Positions 1-9,186 of a stretch of 64,000 bases of DNA are shown piece after piece (within the stretch, counting starts at the first letter, position 1; the number at the start of each line of letters is the position of its first letter). This DNA comes from an uncultured Pelagibacteraceae bacterium (lineage in GTDB: Bacteria > Pseudomonadota > Alphaproteobacteria > Pelagibacterales > Pelagibacteraceae), in the NCBI GenBank assembly GCA_902595885.1, contig CACJRQ010000002.1:42109-106108 (forward strand), given 5' to 3'. The notes under the pieces are model-generated. The model searched no databases. It was not told the origin of the DNA and saw only the letters and a list, made by a program, of their open reading frames with translations. A program made the position numbers and the translations under genes.

Positions 1-672
1 GATTATATTAAAGTTAATAAAATTAGAAAAATACCTACACTAAATTACAATATACCTTCTGATATTAGCTCGAGTGCTTTTTTTATTGTTTTAACTGCTC
101 TATCGAAAAATTCTAAAATTATAATTAAAAATGTAAATATTAATTCCTCTAGAATAGGCATAATAACAATATTAAAAAAAATGGGAATAAAGATTGTCTT
201 AAAAAATATAAGAATTTATAAAGGTGAAAAAATTTCTGATATCAAAGTTGAAAGCCCTAAATCAATCAGGGCAATAAATTGCCCATCAAAATTAAATAGT
301 AGTGCTATTGATGAGTTTTTAATAATTTTTTTAGTTGCTGCCAAGGCAAAGGGAACTTCATATTTTAAAAATTTAGGTGAATTAAATCAAAAGGAAAGTC
401 CCAGACTCAAATGGGGTGAAAAAATTTTAAAAAAAATGGGAGTTAAAACAATACTAACAGAAAACTCAATAAAAATTTTCGGTAATCCAAATCTTGATAT
501 CAATAAAAATATTCAAATTAAAAATTATTTGAAGGACCACAGAGTATTTATGACATGTGTAATTGCAGCACTTTCTTTCGGTGGAAAATGGTCAATCCAT
601 GATAAAGATTCAATAAAAAGCTCATTTCCAAATTTTTTAAAAATTATAAAAAAAATTAAGACAAGTGATTAA
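1..672 (+). CDS. aroA: 3-phosphoshikimate 1-carboxyvinyltransferase, C-terminal part (5' truncated by window edge)
   Basis: Frame 1 is open from base 1 (DYIKVNKIRKIPTLNYNIPSDISSSAFF...) into the listed ORF; DHR motif near C-terminus; adjacent to cmk-rpsA as in many proteobacteria. Confidence 0.85.
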   Translation, partial: DYIKVNKIRKIPTLNYNIPSDISSSAFFIVLTALSKNSKIIIKNVNINSSRIGIITILKKMGIKIVLKNIRIYKGEKISDIKVESPKSIRAINCPSKLNSSAIDEFLIIFLVAAKAKGTSYFKNLGELNQKESPRLKWGEKILKKMGVKTILTENSIKIFGNPNLDINKNIQIKNYLKDHRVFMTCVIAALSFGGKWSIHDKDSIKSSFPNFLKIIKKIKTSD

Positions 673-1321
673 AAGAAAAAATATAATTAAAATAGCAATA
701 GACTCTCCTGCTGCTGCAGGTGCTGGAACAGTAGCAAAAGCAATTTCTAATCATTATAAGCTTTTTTATCTTGATACAGGTAAAATTTATAGATTTATTG
801 CTTATCTTAAATTAAAATTTCCAGATAAATTTAACCATAAATTTGTTAAGTCTAAGATTGAGACTATTAAACTAAAAGATCTGTACAAAAAAGTTTTATT
901 GTCAGATGAGGTAGGCTTAGAAGCTTCTGTAATTTCTAAAAAAAAAAATATCAGAAAAATAGTTCATTCTATTCAATTAAACTTTGCATATAACCCCCCT
1001 AAAAAATATAGAGGATCTTGTTTAGATGGTAGAGATATAACATATAAAATTGTACCAGACGCTGATTTTAAGTTTTTTATTACAGCAAGTTTAAAAACTA
1101 GATCATTAAGGAGATATAAAGAGTTAAGAAATTTAAATAAAAAAATCACTTACACAGAAGTATTAAAAAGTATTAAAAAACGCGACAAAAGTGACCTCAA
1201 CAGGAAAATTTCTCCTTTGAAGAAAACAAAAGATTCACTATTGATTAATACGACAAACCTTACTAAAAGGGCATGTTTTTTAAAAATTAAAAAAATTATA
1301 GACAAAAAAATTATTATTTAA
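665..1321 (+). CDS. cmk: Cytidylate kinase (atypical P-loop)
   Basis: IAIDSPAAAGAGTVAK, YLDTGKIYR, LDGRDITYKIVPDADFKFFITAS; GTG start; upstream of rpsA. Confidence 0.9.
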   Translation: MIKRKNIIKIAIDSPAAAGAGTVAKAISNHYKLFYLDTGKIYRFIAYLKLKFPDKFNHKFVKSKIETIKLKDLYKKVLLSDEVGLEASVISKKKNIRKIVHSIQLNFAYNPPKKYRGSCLDGRDITYKIVPDADFKFFITASLKTRSLRRYKELRNLNKKITYTEVLKSIKKRDKSDLNRKISPLKKTKDSLLINTTNLTKRACFLKIKKIIDKKIII

Positions 1322-3048
1322 TGGAAATTTATAAAGATTTATCTAGCCAAGCTTCTAAAGAATTCGAAAAATTACTAAACAGCCAGCTTTCAAAAGTCCA
1401 AATAGAAGAAGGTAAAATAATTGAAGGTAAAATAAATAAGATTACAGAAAAATTTGTTTTTCTTTTCGTTGAAGGTTTAAAATCAGAACCAGTTCTTGAT
1501 ATTAATGAGTTAAAAAGCATGGGTCTAACAGAAAAAATTAAAGTTGGTGAAACTATATCTGTTCTACTTGAAAAAATTGAAGATAAAAATGGAGAAGTGT
1601 TAGTATCTGCCAGTAAAGCTCAAAAAATTAAAGGTTGGGATAAATTAGTTGAAGCTTACGAAAAAAATGAACCTATAATGGGGAAAATAACCTCAAAATG
1701 CAAAGGCGGATGTATTGTAGAGCACATCGACACCGGTTCCTTAATGTTCTTACCAGGTTCTCAAATAAGTGATAAGCCACTTAAGGATATTAGTCATTTG
1801 ATGAATGAGCCTCAAAAATTCGCACTTATAAAATTAGATAAAGTTAGAGGTAACGCTTGTGTATCAAGAAGGGAAATAATTTCATCATTTAAAAAAGAGG
1901 ACAAAGCAAAAATAATTGAAAAATATAAAGTTGGAGATATTATAAAAAATGCCGAGGTAAAGGGTTACAGTTCTTTTGGATGTTTCTTTAACGTAAATGG
2001 CGAATTAGACGTTTTAGTTCATTTACAAGAAATTTCTTACTCAAGGGTAAATCATCCTGATGAAGTGTTTAATATTGGAGAGAAGCACGACCTAAAAGTA
2101 ATAAGTGTAGACAAAGAAAAATTACAAGTTGGTTGTTCTGTAAAACAATTGTCGCCAGATCCTTTTGAACATATTGAAAATTACGAATTAAATAAAGTTT
2201 ATAAAGTTAAGGTTGTAAAGCTTATGGACTTTGGTGCATTTTGTGAGTTAGAACCAGGTTTAACAACTTTACTTCATTCAAGTGAACTAAGTTGGACAAA
2301 AAAAAATATATCCGCAAAAAAAATGTTTAAGATAGGAGATATTATTGAATGTGTAATTACAGAAATAGACATTGATAAAAGACGTGTAGCAATTTCTCAT
2401 AGACTTACTCAAGAGAATCCTTTTGAAACTTTTCAAAAGCGTTTCCCATTAGGCTCAATTGTTGAAGGTGAAATCGTGAATAAAAATGAATATTCATTAT
2501 TTGTAAAAATAGAAGATTTAGATATAGACGCTTTTTTACATTGTAATGATTTAACATATCTTAATAATGGTGAAGAAGAACTTTCAAAATACAAAAAAGG
2601 CGACAAAATAAAAGTTAAAGTTTTAGAAATTAAAACTTCAGAACAAAAAATAAGAGTAGGATTAAAGCAAACTCAGACTGATCCATTTGATTGGTTTAAA
2701 GATAAATCGAAAAATCAAACAATTACCGTAAAAGTTATTTCAACAGATAATAAAGGATTAATAGTAAGACCTGAAGGTTGTGAGATGGATTTTCAAATTA
2801 AAAAATCTGCAATAGCTATAAATGCAGCAGACGCACGGCCTAGTAGATGGACGGGTGGTGAAAAACTTGATTGTGCAATTGCCGAACTTGACTTAAGTAA
2901 AAGAAAAGTAATTTTAAGTATAAAACTTCTTGAAGAAATTGAAAAAAAAGAAGCCTTAGAAAAATACGGATCTGAAGGATCAGGTAAAAATCTTCCTTTT
3001 TCTTCATTATCTGAGGACTTAAAAAAAAAAGAAGAAGATAAAGAATAA
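1321..3048 (+). CDS. rpsA: 30S ribosomal protein S1
   Basis: 575 aa with repeated S1/OB-fold motifs (GAFCELEPGLTTLLHSSELSW etc.). Confidence 0.97.
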   Translation: MEIYKDLSSQASKEFEKLLNSQLSKVQIEEGKIIEGKINKITEKFVFLFVEGLKSEPVLDINELKSMGLTEKIKVGETISVLLEKIEDKNGEVLVSASKAQKIKGWDKLVEAYEKNEPIMGKITSKCKGGCIVEHIDTGSLMFLPGSQISDKPLKDISHLMNEPQKFALIKLDKVRGNACVSRREIISSFKKEDKAKIIEKYKVGDIIKNAEVKGYSSFGCFFNVNGELDVLVHLQEISYSRVNHPDEVFNIGEKHDLKVISVDKEKLQVGCSVKQLSPDPFEHIENYELNKVYKVKVVKLMDFGAFCELEPGLTTLLHSSELSWTKKNISAKKMFKIGDIIECVITEIDIDKRRVAISHRLTQENPFETFQKRFPLGSIVEGEIVNKNEYSLFVKIEDLDIDAFLHCNDLTYLNNGEEELSKYKKGDKIKVKVLEIKTSEQKIRVGLKQTQTDPFDWFKDKSKNQTITVKVISTDNKGLIVRPEGCEMDFQIKKSAIAINAADARPSRWTGGEKLDCAIAELDLSKRKVILSIKLLEEIEKKEALEKYGSEGSGKNLPFSSLSEDLKKKEEDKE

Positions 3049-3072
3049 AAAAATAATTGAAGAAGATTTAAA

Positions 3073-3363
3073 TTGGCTATTGTAAAATCAAAGCTTTTAA
3101 AACAACTATTAAATAATTATCCAAATTTTCTAAAAAAAGACTTAGAAAAATTTACTGATATAATTTTAAATGAAATTAAAAGATCTCTAAAAAAAGGAGA
3201 AAGAGTAGAATTCAGAGGTTTTGGGGTATTCTCAACAAATATTCAAAAATCACGAATATCTAGAAATCCTCAAACCGGAGAGAAAATTCATACACCTGAA
3301 AAAAGAACAATTCACTTTAAAATGTCTAAAGAGTTGTTTAAAAAATTAAATAATGAAGAATAA
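3073..3363 (+). CDS. ihfB: Integration host factor beta / HU-family DNA-binding protein
   Basis: FRGFGVFSTNIQKSRISRNPQTGEKI signature; TTG start; downstream of rpsA. Confidence 0.93.
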   Translation: MAIVKSKLLKQLLNNYPNFLKKDLEKFTDIILNEIKRSLKKGERVEFRGFGVFSTNIQKSRISRNPQTGEKIHTPEKRTIHFKMSKELFKKLNNEE

Positions 3364-4045
3364 AAGTATATTTGTTGCGTGTGATACTTCAAAAATAAAT
3401 AAAATAAAAAAAATAGTAAACCAAACTAAAACAAATAAACTTAAAATAATTCCAAAATTTGGACTCCAGTTTTTTTACTCCAAGGAAGGAAGAGGTTTCT
3501 TAGAAAAAATTAAAAGTGATTTCTGGTTAGATTTAAAAATAAATGATATTCCTCAGACAGCTTTGTCAGCAATTGATAGTTTAAAAGACTTAAAAAAGTG
3601 TAAATATATTACTGTTCATGCTAATGGTGGTTTAGAAATGCTTAAGGCAGTTAAGAAAAAATCAAAAAAAATTAATAAAAATTTAAAGATATTAGGTGTT
3701 ACGGTTTTAACGAGTCTAGATAATAAATCCTTAAAACAAATAGGTTATACAAAAAAGGTTAAACAATTAGTTTTAAAACAGGCTGATCTCATAAAAAAAT
3801 CAGGTTGTGATGGAATAGTCTGTTCTGCTCAAGAAGCTAAGATAATTCGTAAAAGGTATAAAAATTTATTAATTATTACTCCAGGAATAAGGTTACCTGG
3901 AGATAGTTCGAATGATCAAAAGAGAATAATGACACCTAAAAGTGCATTTGAAAATAAGGTTTCAGGTATAGTCATAGGAAGGTCTCTCACAAAGGGTAAC
4001 ATTAAAAATAATACAAAAAAGCTATTAGATCATCTTGGTAAATGA
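3353..4045 (+). CDS. pyrF: Orotidine 5'-phosphate decarboxylase
   Basis: DLKINDIPQT catalytic DxKxxD, C-terminal PGIRLPGDSSNDQKR..VIGRSLT. Confidence 0.92.
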   Translation: MKNKSIFVACDTSKINKIKKIVNQTKTNKLKIIPKFGLQFFYSKEGRGFLEKIKSDFWLDLKINDIPQTALSAIDSLKDLKKCKYITVHANGGLEMLKAVKKKSKKINKNLKILGVTVLTSLDNKSLKQIGYTKKVKQLVLKQADLIKKSGCDGIVCSAQEAKIIRKRYKNLLIITPGIRLPGDSSNDQKRIMTPKSAFENKVSGIVIGRSLTKGNIKNNTKKLLDHLGK

Positions 4046-4671
4046 TCAAGGGTTGTAAAATTTGTGGGATAAAAGATTCTAATACCTTAAGTTTTATTAT
4101 TAATCATCCTTACCCTCCAACATTTATTGGTTTCATTTGTAATTACCCAAAGAGTTCAAGATATATCAGATCTAATGATTTAAAAAAATTACTTAATATT
4201 CATAAAAATAAAAGTAAGTTTGTTGCTGTTTTAGTGAAACCTAACAACGAAATTTTAGAAAAAATAAAAAATTTACCTTTTGATTATTATCAATTGTATG
4301 ATTGTACTCCAGATGAAATTAAATTTATTAAACAAAAATATCAAAAAAAAATTATTACTGCTATTACGATAAAAGATAAATCTGATGTTATTAAACACAA
4401 ATTATTTGCTTCAGTAACAGATATTTATTTGTTTGACAGTAAAGGGTATGAAAAAAGTAAGGGATTTGATCATAATTTAATTAATAATATAAAACTTAAC
4501 AAAGAATTAATGTTAGCAGGTAATATAAAATTTGATAATAATCTGCAAAATTATGAAAAAATTGCAGATTACATTGATTTATCTGGAGGACTAGAAACTT
4601 CTGGATTAAAAGATGTATCCAAAATAGAAATTTTTTTAAACAATCTAAATAAAATTAAAAATGAAGCTTAA
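4042..4671 (+). CDS. trpF: Phosphoribosylanthranilate isomerase
   Basis: KICGIKD, LFDSKG, DLSGGLETSGLKD; upstream of trpBA. Confidence 0.9.
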   Translation: MIKGCKICGIKDSNTLSFIINHPYPPTFIGFICNYPKSSRYIRSNDLKKLLNIHKNKSKFVAVLVKPNNEILEKIKNLPFDYYQLYDCTPDEIKFIKQKYQKKIITAITIKDKSDVIKHKLFASVTDIYLFDSKGYEKSKGFDHNLINNIKLNKELMLAGNIKFDNNLQNYEKIADYIDLSGGLETSGLKDVSKIEIFLNNLNKIKNEA

Positions 4672-5890
4672 AAAAAATATTCCGTTAATTGACCAGCATG
4701 ACCGTTATGGTTTTTGGGGTGGTAAATTTGGAGGAAGTTTTATTCCCGAAACTTTAAAAAAACCTGTAGAAGATTTAACAAGAGAATTTTCAAAATTAAG
4801 AAATAACAAAAAATTTTTAAAAAAAAGAGATTACTATTTTAAAAATTACATTGGATCACCTACATCATTTGTAAAATTAGAAAATTTATCCAATTATTTA
4901 GGTGGAGCTCAAATATGGGCAAAAGTTGTATCTGAAGCTAATGGTGGTGCTCATAAAATATATAATGCAACCGTTCATGCTTTAATTTGTAAGGCTATGG
5001 GAAAAAAATATATAGTTGGTGATACAGGTGCTGGTTATGCTGGCAAAATGCTAAGTATGGCCGCGAAAAAATTTGGTTTGAAATGTAAAATATTCATGGG
5101 TGCTAAAGATATTAAGAGGCAAAAACCTAATTGTGATGCTATGAGAAAAAATGGTGCTGAAATAGTTCCTGTTTATTCTGGTAGCCAAACTTTAGTTGAT
5201 GCAGTGAGTGAATGTATGAGATATTGGGTTTCAAATTGTGATACCACTCATATGTGTGTTGGTAGTACTGTTGGCCCAAATATTTTTGTAAAAATATGTG
5301 GGTGGAGCACTGCACAAATTTCTAGAGAATTAAAAATACAAATTAAAAATGAATTTAAAAAAATTCCAAATAAAATTAAATTAATAAACTGCGTTGGTGG
5401 TGGTAGCTCAGCTTATGGTTTTTGGAGTGAATTTATAGATTTTAATAAATCTCAGATTGAATTAATTGGTGTTGAAGCTGGTGGTCCAAAAAAATCAAAA
5501 CTTCATGCAGCTCCTCTCAGTAGAAATGCTAGAATTGGAATTTTACATGGTGCAGCTTCATATGTTTGTCAAAATAATGAAGGTCAAATAAACGAAACAG
5601 ATTCAATAAGTGCTGGATTAGATTATCCAGGTGTCAGTCCAATACATTGTTTTTTAAAAGATACTAAAAGAGCAAGATACACTTATGCAACTGATGAGGA
5701 GGCACTTAAAGCTCATGTGATAGTAACTAAATTTGAAAAACTTAATCCAAGTTTAGAGCCTAGCCATGCTTTTGCTGAAGCAATTAAAATTGCTCCAAAA
5801 TTAAGCAAAGACACAATTGTAATAGTAAATTCATGTGGCGATGCTAAAAAAGATAGAGATATATTAAGAGAAAGATTAGGTAAAAATTAA
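4661..5890 (+). CDS. trpB: Tryptophan synthase beta chain (divergent)
   Basis: GAHK PLP lysine, CVGGGSSA, SISAGLDYPGVSP, LEPSHA; between trpF and trpA. Confidence 0.9.
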   Translation: MKLKKNIPLIDQHDRYGFWGGKFGGSFIPETLKKPVEDLTREFSKLRNNKKFLKKRDYYFKNYIGSPTSFVKLENLSNYLGGAQIWAKVVSEANGGAHKIYNATVHALICKAMGKKYIVGDTGAGYAGKMLSMAAKKFGLKCKIFMGAKDIKRQKPNCDAMRKNGAEIVPVYSGSQTLVDAVSECMRYWVSNCDTTHMCVGSTVGPNIFVKICGWSTAQISRELKIQIKNEFKKIPNKIKLINCVGGGSSAYGFWSEFIDFNKSQIELIGVEAGGPKKSKLHAAPLSRNARIGILHGAASYVCQNNEGQINETDSISAGLDYPGVSPIHCFLKDTKRARYTYATDEEALKAHVIVTKFEKLNPSLEPSHAFAEAIKIAPKLSKDTIVIVNSCGDAKKDRDILRERLGKN

Positions 5891-6690
5891 TGAATTCATT
5901 AATCAACAAAGCTTTCTTAAATGCTAAAAGTGAAAATAGACCAGCTTTACTGACTTATACTGTTGCGGGAGATAATAACAAAAAAAAATCCTTAGAAATA
6001 CTTAAATCAATTTCAAATTATGCTGATATTTGTGAATTAGGTTTTCCACACAATACTCCAATAGCTGATGGAGGACAAATACAAACGAGCGCTTATCGAG
6101 CAATCAAAAATGGAATTAAAATTAAAGATGTATTTTCAATTGCAAAAAATTTTAAAAAAATCAAAAAAAATAAACCAATAATCTTAATGGGTTATTACAA
6201 TATGATTTATCAATTTAATGAAAATAAATTTTTAGAGAAATGCAAAAAATCAAAAGTTGATGGTCTTATAGTTGTTGACTTACCCTATCCTGAAAATAAA
6301 AATTTTGCTTCAAAATGTAAAAAAAAAAGAATTAATTTTATTCAATTAGTTTCACCAACTACTTCTATGATTAGATTAAAAAAAATCATAAAAGATTCGC
6401 ACGACATGATTTATTATATAAGCATGTTATCCACTACAGGAGGAAAGCTTAAAGTATCCCCAAAAAAAATATTAGAAAAATACAATAGAATTAAAAAACA
6501 AAATAAATCAAAAAATGTTGTTATTGGCTTTGGAATTACAGAAAAAACAATCAAATCACTTAAAAAAGCCGATGGTTTAGTAGTTGGTAGTGCAATATGC
6601 AAAGAAATCTCAAAATCCATTGAAAAGAGACAAAATGCTGTCACAAATGTTACTAATATTGTAAAGAGATTAAAAAATAAAATTCAATGA
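5890..6690 (+). CDS. trpA: Tryptophan synthase alpha chain (divergent loops)
   Basis: CELGFPHNTPIADGGQIQ, VIGFGI, VVGSAI TIM-barrel motifs; follows trpB. Confidence 0.9.
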   Translation: MNSLINKAFLNAKSENRPALLTYTVAGDNNKKKSLEILKSISNYADICELGFPHNTPIADGGQIQTSAYRAIKNGIKIKDVFSIAKNFKKIKKNKPIILMGYYNMIYQFNENKFLEKCKKSKVDGLIVVDLPYPENKNFASKCKKKRINFIQLVSPTTSMIRLKKIIKDSHDMIYYISMLSTTGGKLKVSPKKILEKYNRIKKQNKSKNVVIGFGITEKTIKSLKKADGLVVGSAICKEISKSIEKRQNAVTNVTNIVKRLKNKIQ

Positions 6691-7616
6691 ACTGGATAAC
6701 TAAAATTATTAAAGCAGGTGAAAAGATTAAAACAGCTATACGTGAAAGAGCTTCAAAAGAAGATATTGCAAAAAGTGATTGGACATCATGTTGCAAGGGT
6801 CCAATTTTAAAAAAAGATTTAGAGGAAAACTTGTGGGTATGTCCAGATTGTAAACGTCATCATAGAATAAAGCCACATCAAAGATTTGATATTTTATTTG
6901 GAAAAAATAATTACGAGATTTTCAAAACTCCAATACCAAAAGATGATCCACTAAATTGGACAGATTCTAAACCCTACAAAGAAAGATTAAAAAGTGCCCG
7001 AAAAAAAACAGGATTAGAATGTGGAATGATGGTTGCCTCTGGAACTATAAATAATATTAAAATTACAGCTGTAGCTTCCGATTTTGATTTTTTAGGAGCT
7101 TCAATGGCAGCAGCAGAAGGTGAAGCTTTTTTATATGGAATACAACATGCGATAGAAAATCAAACACCTTTTTTATGTATTAGTGCTGGTGGTGGAATGA
7201 GAATGATGGAAAGTTTAATATCATTATCTCAAATGACTAGAACGACACTTGCAATTAATGAATTAAAAAAAAACGGACTTCCATATTTAGTTTGCATAAC
7301 TGATCCAACAGCTGGTGGTATTACGGCATCATACGCGATGTTAGGTGATATTCATATTGCAGAACCAGGGGCTTTAATTGCTTTTGCGGGAGCAAGAGTA
7401 ATACAAGGAACTGTGAAAGAAGAACTTCCTGAAGGTTTCCAAAAAAGTGAATATGTAGAAAAAACCGGTTTCGTTGATTTAATTGTTGAGCGTAAAGATC
7501 TTGCATCTAAAATTGGAACCTTATTATCAATATTGTTAAAGAAAAATTCTGATATAAGTGCTGAACAAAATGAAACTTCAGAAGATAGTCAGTCGCTTAC
7601 AAGAGCTGCATCCTAA
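6687..7616 (+). CDS. accD: Acetyl-CoA carboxylase carboxyltransferase subunit beta
   Basis: Zn-ribbon-like N-terminus (CC...CPDC), TDPTAGGITASYAMLGDIHIAEPGALIAFAG. Confidence 0.95.
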   Translation: MNWITKIIKAGEKIKTAIRERASKEDIAKSDWTSCCKGPILKKDLEENLWVCPDCKRHHRIKPHQRFDILFGKNNYEIFKTPIPKDDPLNWTDSKPYKERLKSARKKTGLECGMMVASGTINNIKITAVASDFDFLGASMAAAEGEAFLYGIQHAIENQTPFLCISAGGGMRMMESLISLSQMTRTTLAINELKKNGLPYLVCITDPTAGGITASYAMLGDIHIAEPGALIAFAGARVIQGTVKEELPEGFQKSEYVEKTGFVDLIVERKDLASKIGTLLSILLKKNSDISAEQNETSEDSQSLTRAAS

Positions 7617-8838
7617 AGAAATAGATTTAAGTCTAGATCGTATTCAAAGTCTCTGCAAAAAATTAGGCAACCCTCAAGATAAAATCAAAGCAATTTCAAT
7701 TGTTGGTACCAATGGAAAGTACTCAACTATCCAAGCAATGTTTTCTATTTTAAAAGAAGCAAATTTCAATTGTAATATCTACACTAGTCCTCATATCAAA
7801 AGTATCAATGAAAGGTTTGTTTTTAATAATGAAGAATTGAATGATGAAGATTTGGCAAATTTACTTGAAGAAGTTGAGGAAGCTAACAATGGTGAACCAA
7901 TTACTTTTTTTGAAATACTGACTGCAGCCTATTTTTTAAAAGCATATCAATACCCAGATAATATCAATTTAATTGAAAGTGGATTATTCTTTAGATTTGA
8001 CGCTACTAATATCTTAAAAAATAACCTTGCTAGCGTTGTAACATCTATTGGCCTTGATCATTTAGATTGGCTACCTGAAAATGAACAAACTGTTGAAAAA
8101 ATTATTTTTGAGAAAACATCAAGCTTATTAAACTCAAATATTATAATTGCAAAACAAAGTACTAATAAAATCAAAGAAAATATTAAAAAAACAATTTCAA
8201 ATAATAGATCAAATAAGTTTTTCCATAATGAAAATTATAGTTTTACAATGCAAGAAAATGACTTCTTTTATTATGAAGATCAATTTGGGGGAATAAAATT
8301 ACCTATGCCAAATGTTAAAGGTCAATTTCAATTAGAAAATGTCTCAACAGCAATTGCGACCCTAAGAATTTTGAAAGACTTAAAAATTAAAGATGACCAC
8401 ATTAAAAAAGGTATTTTAAAAATAAATTGTATTGCAAGATTACAAGAAATTAAATCTGGAAAACTTAAAGAGCTTGTAAAAGATCACAAACTTTATGTTG
8501 ATGGATCTCATAACCCATTGGGAGCAAAAGTTTTGAATGAATACTTGGAAAGTTTAGATTGCAATAAACACATCATTCTTGGAATGATGGCTAATAAAGA
8601 TCATAATGAATATATGAGTTTCTTTAAGGATATCTCTACATTGACTACAATAGATATACCTAATCAACCTAATTCAATTAAAGGAGGAGAGCTTAAAGAT
8701 AAGCTAAACGGCTTTTCAAATATAAATTATAAGGAAAGTATAGAAGATGCAATAAAGTCAATCCCGGTAAAAGAAAACGATATAATCCTGATTACTGGAT
8801 CGTTATATCTTGCCGGTGAAGTTTTAAATTTAAATTAG
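7570..8838 (+). CDS. folC: Bifunctional folylpolyglutamate synthase/dihydrofolate synthase
   Basis: VGTNGKYST P-loop, YVDGSHNPLGA; start likely ATG at 7570 overlapping accD by 47 nt. Confidence 0.9.
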   Translation: MKLQKIVSRLQELHPKEIDLSLDRIQSLCKKLGNPQDKIKAISIVGTNGKYSTIQAMFSILKEANFNCNIYTSPHIKSINERFVFNNEELNDEDLANLLEEVEEANNGEPITFFEILTAAYFLKAYQYPDNINLIESGLFFRFDATNILKNNLASVVTSIGLDHLDWLPENEQTVEKIIFEKTSSLLNSNIIIAKQSTNKIKENIKKTISNNRSNKFFHNENYSFTMQENDFFYYEDQFGGIKLPMPNVKGQFQLENVSTAIATLRILKDLKIKDDHIKKGILKINCIARLQEIKSGKLKELVKDHKLYVDGSHNPLGAKVLNEYLESLDCNKHIILGMMANKDHNEYMSFFKDISTLTTIDIPNQPNSIKGGELKDKLNGFSNINYKESIEDAIKSIPVKENDIILITGSLYLAGEVLNLN

Positions 8839-9152
8839 ATATTTTTATCTAAAAATTCCTTCATGTGACTTTCGGGAACTCCACCAACTTTTCTATCTAC
8901 TTCAACGCCTTTTTTATAGATAATAACTGTTGGAACACCTCTGATACCTGCTGCACTTCCAGTATTTATTCCACCATCTTCAACATCAGCATAATAGAAA
9001 CCAGCCTTATCTTTATATTCATCAGATAACTTATCCATTACTGGTTTTAGTGCCTTACATGGACCACACCACTCAGCTGAAAACTGGATGACTGAAACAT
9101 CTTCATTTTTAATTTTAGTGTCAAAATCTTCGTCTTTAAAATTTGTAAGCAT
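8835..9152 (-). CDS. trxA: Thioredoxin
   Basis: AEWCGPCKALKP, RGVPTVIIYKKG. Confidence 0.97.
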   Translation of the reverse strand: MLTNFKDEDFDTKIKNEDVSVIQFSAEWCGPCKALKPVMDKLSDEYKDKAGFYYADVEDGGINTGSAAGIRGVPTVIIYKKGVEVDRKVGGVPESHMKEFLDKNI

Positions 9153-9186
9153 ATTTCCTTTCTATTAATTAGAGCCTTAAAGTCAA

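Follow-up and report, generated by a model that had tools for sequence, protein, structure and literature searches.

The trpB gene of an uncultured Pelagibacteraceae bacterium raised the question whether a tryptophan synthase beta subunit in which several normally invariant active-site residues are replaced still makes tryptophan. It was found in the window, the whole stretch of 64,000 nucleotides that was analysed, and is linked to trpA, which begins on the final base of the stop codon of trpB (Table 1). The protein matched the PLP-dependent family PF00291 by sequence, and was aligned with solved TrpB chains (LBCA and P. furiosus) at E values of approximately 1e-100 to 1e-97. It scored 388.8 bits with TIGR00263, 3.7 bits short of the curated cut-off of 392.45, and 91.5 bits with the TrpB2 model (TIGR01415), which has a cut-off of 518.85. 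The adjacent TrpA scored 210 bits with TIGR00262 (cut-off 102). The nearest relatives of the window's trpB were SAR11 records (Pelagibacteraceae), and the best matches outside SAR11 were 44% identical and canonical. A viral origin was rejected: no relative was present in IMG/VR, and matches in phage collections were only approximately 39–43% identical. This SAR11-type protein, hereafter class A, descends from the ordinary TrpB1 lineage; it is a genuine variant of a very well-known enzyme, conserved within its lineage and specific to it. Since it misses the TIGR00263 cut-off as well as several defining residues, it was filed as a variant rather than as plain TrpB1.

The window TrpB was aligned to TrpB of E. 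coli (NC_000913), LBCA and Pyrococcus, and to 21 canonical reference TrpBs, among them that of E. coli, the numbering of which is used throughout; class A comprised 117 aligned SAR11 sequences. Residues H86, K87, T110–G113, R141, L166, G189, G232–S235, D305 and E350 were kept, and the PLP lysine and GGGS loop were invariant in class A. All or most class A sequences carried R77V, H82N, N89Y, A108G, E109D, Q114Y, H115A, A118M, K167V, Y186M, H195N, P196I, P198V, R202G, N236S, R379D, G380A and D381K, with E109D and H115A completely fixed (117/117). Position 109 was Asp in every class A and class B sequence (class B is introduced below) and Glu in all 21 canonical references. The TGAGQH substrate-carboxylate loop was absent, and the window TrpB had TGAGYA in its place. 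R148 was replaced by Ala in the window, and by Ala or Ser in sequences with a changed beta-167. From the 108 columns that were invariant in the canonical references, class A kept 65, replaced 32 with a new, mostly fixed residue and was mixed at 11.

The original prediction had described an intact PLP lysine (GAHK) and GGGSS loop, together with the replacement of REDLNHTGAHK by VVSEANGGAHK, of AETGAGQHG by GDTGAGYAG (Glu109 to Asp, QH lost) and of GPHPYP by GPNIFV. All of these motifs were confirmed letter for letter and in register with E. coli TrpB, and the alignments bore out the claim that several normally invariant active-site residues are changed. The prediction had overlooked K167V and R148A in TrpB and the accompanying D56T in TrpA. 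Its reading of LSGRGDKD as SCGDAKKD stood in part: the change of GRGDKD to GDAKKD is unusual, but the replacement of Ser377 by Cys is ordinary. Cys occupied this position in 16 of the 21 canonical references (NMCGRGDKD) and is the commoner residue in canonical Alphaproteobacteria, so the Ser377 change in SAR11 TrpB is not anomalous. Misalignment as the source of the apparent changes was rejected by the alignments with E. coli, LBCA, Pyrococcus and the canonical set. A structure prediction of the TrpB with 21 close relatives had a pLDDT of 49 and was set aside.

Table 1. Features of the trpF–trpB–trpA region, in window coordinates; residue equivalents refer to E. coli.
Feature	Position	Strand	Basis
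trpF, phosphoribosylanthranilate isomerase; overlaps trpB start	4042..4671	+	
Exchanged block (trpF end, trpB, trpA); no DNA alignment with L194, flanks 79–84%	4452..6689	+	
trpB, 409 aa, SAR11-type tryptophan synthase beta subunit (class A)	4661..5890	+	TIGR00263, PF00291
VVSEANGGAH(K), replaces canonical R(E/D)(D/E)L(N)H(T/G)GAH; aa 89–99	4925..4954 (with K to 4957)	+	
PLP lysine codon, K99 (K87), kept	4955..4957	+	alignment
GDTGAGYAG, aa 120–128	5018–5044	+	alignment
D121 (E109), indole-activating carboxylate, Glu to Asp	5021..5023	+	alignment; Glu109 role, PMC9512447
Y126–A127 (Q114–H115), substrate-carboxylate loop	5036..5041	+	alignment
V179 (K167), COMM-domain lysine contacting alpha-Asp56 in known complexes	5195..5197	+	PMC6608616
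GPNIFV, replaces GPHPYP; aa 205–210	5273..5290	+	alignment
GGGSS phosphate loop; last position N236 to S	5396..5410	+	alignment
SCGDAKKD, replaces (L/M)(S/C)GRGDKD; aa 391–398	5831..5854	+	alignment
trpA, 266 aa, partner alpha subunit; Glu49 and Asp60 kept, Asp56 to Thr	5890..6690	+	TIGR00262
Alpha T56 codon (canonical Asp56)	6055..6057	+	alignment

As a DNA pattern, GDTGAGYAG was present in 231 of 297 SAR11 genomes, spanning 9 of 12 genera and both families, so the changes are not due to chance or sequencing error. In a sample of 386 genomes of the class it was found in five, each of them SAR11, and in none of the 381 other Alphaproteobacteria. The median dN/dS was 0.10 for trpB and 0.15 for trpA. 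SAR11 trpB is under strong purifying selection, and the substitutions are fixed across SAR11. In three of the genomes apparently without trpB, pyrF was located close to the end of a contig or directly at it (G239, G024 and G112; loci L182–L184), and most of the others also had no detectable pyrF. Because contigs end near pyrF and trpC is present in nearly all genomes, assembly gaps are likelier than a loss of trpB. In L182, L183 and L184 the contig breaks off at pyrF or a short way past it, which would fit a slot that assembles poorly because it is variable. One SAR11 genome of 1.6 Mb (G881) contained two GDTGAGYAG copies, on contigs 38 and 69, which may reflect either contamination or a genuine second trpB.

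The trpBA pair is exchanged as one cassette between SAR11 relatives. Locus L194 aligned with the window at 79% over positions 1–4451 and at 84% over 6690–9154, with no DNA alignment between them, and L112 had the same alignment gap. Across 32 loci, protein distances of trpB correlated with those of trpA at r = 0.96, with those of rpsA at r = 0.12 and with those of accD at r = 0.31; distances that are coupled within trpBA and unlinked from rpsA indicate that the pair moves as a unit. In other SAR11 genomes, the same slot held class B (GDTGAGMAG), class C (CESGAGQHYS, D305Q/T, with alpha D56E and D60E), class D (TETGASMNA, R141K, K167L), class E (R141L, D305N) or class F, which is canonical. Class C includes G012, which we take to be HIMB5. 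Classes A/B, C/E, D and F were placed separately in the tree, with long stems of approximately 1.0 changes per site for A/B and 2.2 for D. The SAR11 slot holds at least four deeply different trpBA alleles.

A separate comparison was made with L185 (genome G061), from another genus of the same family. Identity to the window (181–8838) was 32–37% for aroA, cmk, rpsA, accD and folC, 83% for trpB and 70% for trpA. Either the genes around trpBA have diverged to an unusual degree in the genus of the window, or an exchange of trpBA has taken place.

The beta-167/alpha-56 contact pair was Val/Thr in the window instead of the canonical Lys/Asp. In published structures, alpha-Asp56 (M. tuberculosis Asp64) contacts a COMM-domain lysine (M. 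tuberculosis Lys181, equated with E. coli Lys167 in the present analysis), and changes of alpha-Asp56 matter mainly in the alpha–beta complex (PMC6608616). Among 186 TrpA/TrpB pairs, 150 of them from SAR11 and some from overlapping loci, Lys at beta-167 was consistently paired with Asp or Glu at alpha-56, and Val or Leu with Thr, Ala or Cys (186/186); all 36 non-SAR11 pairs were Lys/Asp. Classes A/B formed one clade, and the joining of class D to it was not rejected by the AU test, so the agreement mostly reflects shared ancestry, with only one or two independent co-losses of Lys167 and Asp56. Two independent co-losses were not established by this test. The joint loss of beta-Lys167 and alpha-Asp56 suggests altered alpha–beta signalling: with the contact gone from both partners, signals between the sites would probably be weaker or travel by another route. 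On a wider scale, we tentatively consider it possible, if somewhat doubtful, that SAR11 exchanges trpBA as a co-evolving cassette, and that several of its lineages have taken apart the alpha–beta relay, each at a different point (Lys167–Asp56 in A/B and D, Asp305 in C and E, also Arg141 in E), while their enzymes still work as tryptophan synthases. Natural allosterically uncoupled bienzymes would then be common in SAR11, which is among the most abundant bacterial groups of the ocean.

No second TrpB was detected in the window's genome (1.12 Mb, 84% complete), where the only match was one of 18.7 bits to another frame of 377 aa. TrpB2 was absent from 11 closed or near-complete Pelagibacterales genomes carrying class A, which is the sole TrpB there. 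Across the 14 closed or near-complete Pelagibacterales genomes tested, TrpB2 exceeded the cut-off in one, G353 (presumably HIMB59), which has a canonical TrpB. trpD was found in 14 of 14 genomes tested and trpC in 37 of 38. Class A TrpB is also carried by G066, which we take to be Ca. P. ubique HTCC1062. Strain HTCC1062 has been cultured in AMS1 with pyruvate, glycine, methionine and vitamins, and tryptophan is not listed among the additions (PMC13198564). The sole TrpB, the retention of trpC and trpD and the growth of HTCC1062 without listed tryptophan lead to the prediction that class A TrpB is very probably a working tryptophan synthase. In their section on the SAR11 cluster, Kagan et al. 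(2008) recognised it as a trpB1 group of its own and reasoned that, being present in a single copy, it must be functional (PMC2395257).

We consider it likely that class A TrpB is a TrpB1-derived working synthase that has Asp in place of Glu109, was remodelled as a unit with TrpA and probably has weaker or rerouted signalling. Indole would be joined to the serine-derived aminoacrylate on PLP with the usual lysine, and Asp109, helped by the surrounding changes, would hold the indole N–H where other enzymes use Glu109. The substrate-carboxylate loop is altered from QH to YA, the contact between the COMM domain and alpha loop 2 (beta-Lys167/alpha-Asp56) has been dropped on both sides, and the alpha–beta relay is probably weakened or rerouted. 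Altered kinetics or an altered substrate range, as the original prediction supposed, are plausible. Brzovic is said to have found in 1992 that the Salmonella E109D enzyme is markedly slower with indole, by approximately 27-fold; SAR11 would then either tolerate a slow enzyme or compensate for it through the background. We counted against the preferred reading the 3.7-bit shortfall with TIGR00263 and the fact that the Glu109 carboxylate, which binds indole N1, has been called essential in the Salmonella enzyme (PMC9512447). In the closed state, beta-Gln114 bonds with Asn145 and Arg148 (PMC9512447).

The alteration of the indole-contacting Glu109 and of the carboxylate loop at 114–115 would also fit a changed substrate, with a donor other than serine or a nucleophile other than indole, and with tryptophan no longer made or made only as a secondary activity. 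According to a passage of PMC12727527 that cites other work, engineering of the matching Glu105 gives tyrosine synthase activity. This is the less likely reading, and to us a rather improbable one, given a sole trpB beside trpF and trpA, the presence of trpC and trpD, a TrpA that retains Glu49, Asp60 (Glu in a few other alleles) and Thr183, and the culture of HTCC1062 without added tryptophan. A TrpB without catalytic activity that serves only to activate TrpA, with tryptophan coming from another enzyme or from import, has a model in the plant TSB-like pseudoenzymes, in which the matching indole-binding Glu is likewise changed (PMC12727527). Such a role is hardly credible for SAR11 TrpB, since the replacement of Glu by Asp retains a carboxylate, none of the 117 sequences departs from the PLP lysine or the phosphate loop, and closed genomes contain no second TrpB. 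The plant protein has Ala at this position and is a paralog beside an active TSB, whereas SAR11 TrpB is the only TrpB (PMC12727527). Neither a lost active-site carboxylate nor a separate active TrpB, the traits of the TSB-like proteins, was found for SAR11 TrpB.

The changes might also have arisen by drift, in a lineage that grows slowly, is AT-rich, evolves fast and is under relaxed selection, with nothing functional beyond a lower activity. The long stem branches of classes A/B and D are consistent with this, as are the odd motifs in neighbouring genes. However, dN/dS was only approximately 0.05–0.1, E109D and H115A were found in every class A sequence, the 32 replaced columns had mostly settled on a new residue while 65 were kept, and TrpA carried a matching change. 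We therefore regard drift as unlikely, and retain the working, remodelled synthase as the best explanation.

SAR11 TrpB resembles TrpB1 of Salmonella/E. coli and P. furiosus in Lys87, His86, the GGGS loop, the Arg141–Asp305 pair, Glu350 and the neighbouring trpA, and differs from it in E109D, Q114Y, H115A, N236S, K167V, R148A, R379D and the loss of REDLxH and GPHPYP. The Sargasso Sea SAR11-type trpB1 cluster of Kagan et al. is the same group, with 64–87% identity to a reference; the section on it describes no active-site or interface residues, other slot alleles or TrpA co-change (PMC2395257). TrpB2 (TIGR01415/COG1350) is a distant relative of SAR11 TrpB with its own motifs, YEGVSPTGSHKPN and TETGAGQWG, and occurs as a gene of its own in G353 and a few SAR11 genomes. 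A TrpB2-like gene with these motifs was observed in loci L119, L120 and L150. The natural standalone plTrpB, which is weakly activated by TrpA, is a precedent for reduced allosteric coupling, but achieves it through different residues (the Res6 set) than SAR11 TrpB (PMC11917138). The SAR11 trpB cluster has been reported before; the rewiring of its active site and interface and the exchange of the cassette appear to be undescribed. No prior report of the residue changes was found in the open-licence papers searched, and one may exist elsewhere.

Tryptophan synthase serves as the model enzyme in studies of allostery and substrate channelling, and the residues of its relay have been treated as near-universal. 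SAR11 provides hundreds of natural sequences with Asp109 and with Lys167/Asp56 gone in both partners, next to alleles in which other parts of the relay are altered, so it becomes directly testable which parts of the relay a bienzyme can lose and still work. The alleles are also natural starting points for TrpB engineering. In addition, a co-evolved pair of enzymes that is swapped at one fixed position of the chromosome offers a clear example of how a whole complex is exchanged in a streamlined genome.

Unusual motifs were also observed in the neighbouring genes. Between aroA and rpsA, cmk was undetected in several SAR11 genomes (L113, positions 1336–1552; L189, L191 and L200). The cytidylate kinase of the window (665–1321) had the P-loop DSPAAAGAGT, with Ala at the usual lysine (GKGT/GKST); this motif was exact in 67 of 83 loci with a detected CMK, and some other SAR11 genera had GKGT, GKST, GKTT or GKNT. 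In FolC (7558–8838), the P-loop GTNGKGS was changed to GTNGKYS, and GKNS, GKFS, GSDGKFT and ATNSKFS were seen in other SAR11 loci.
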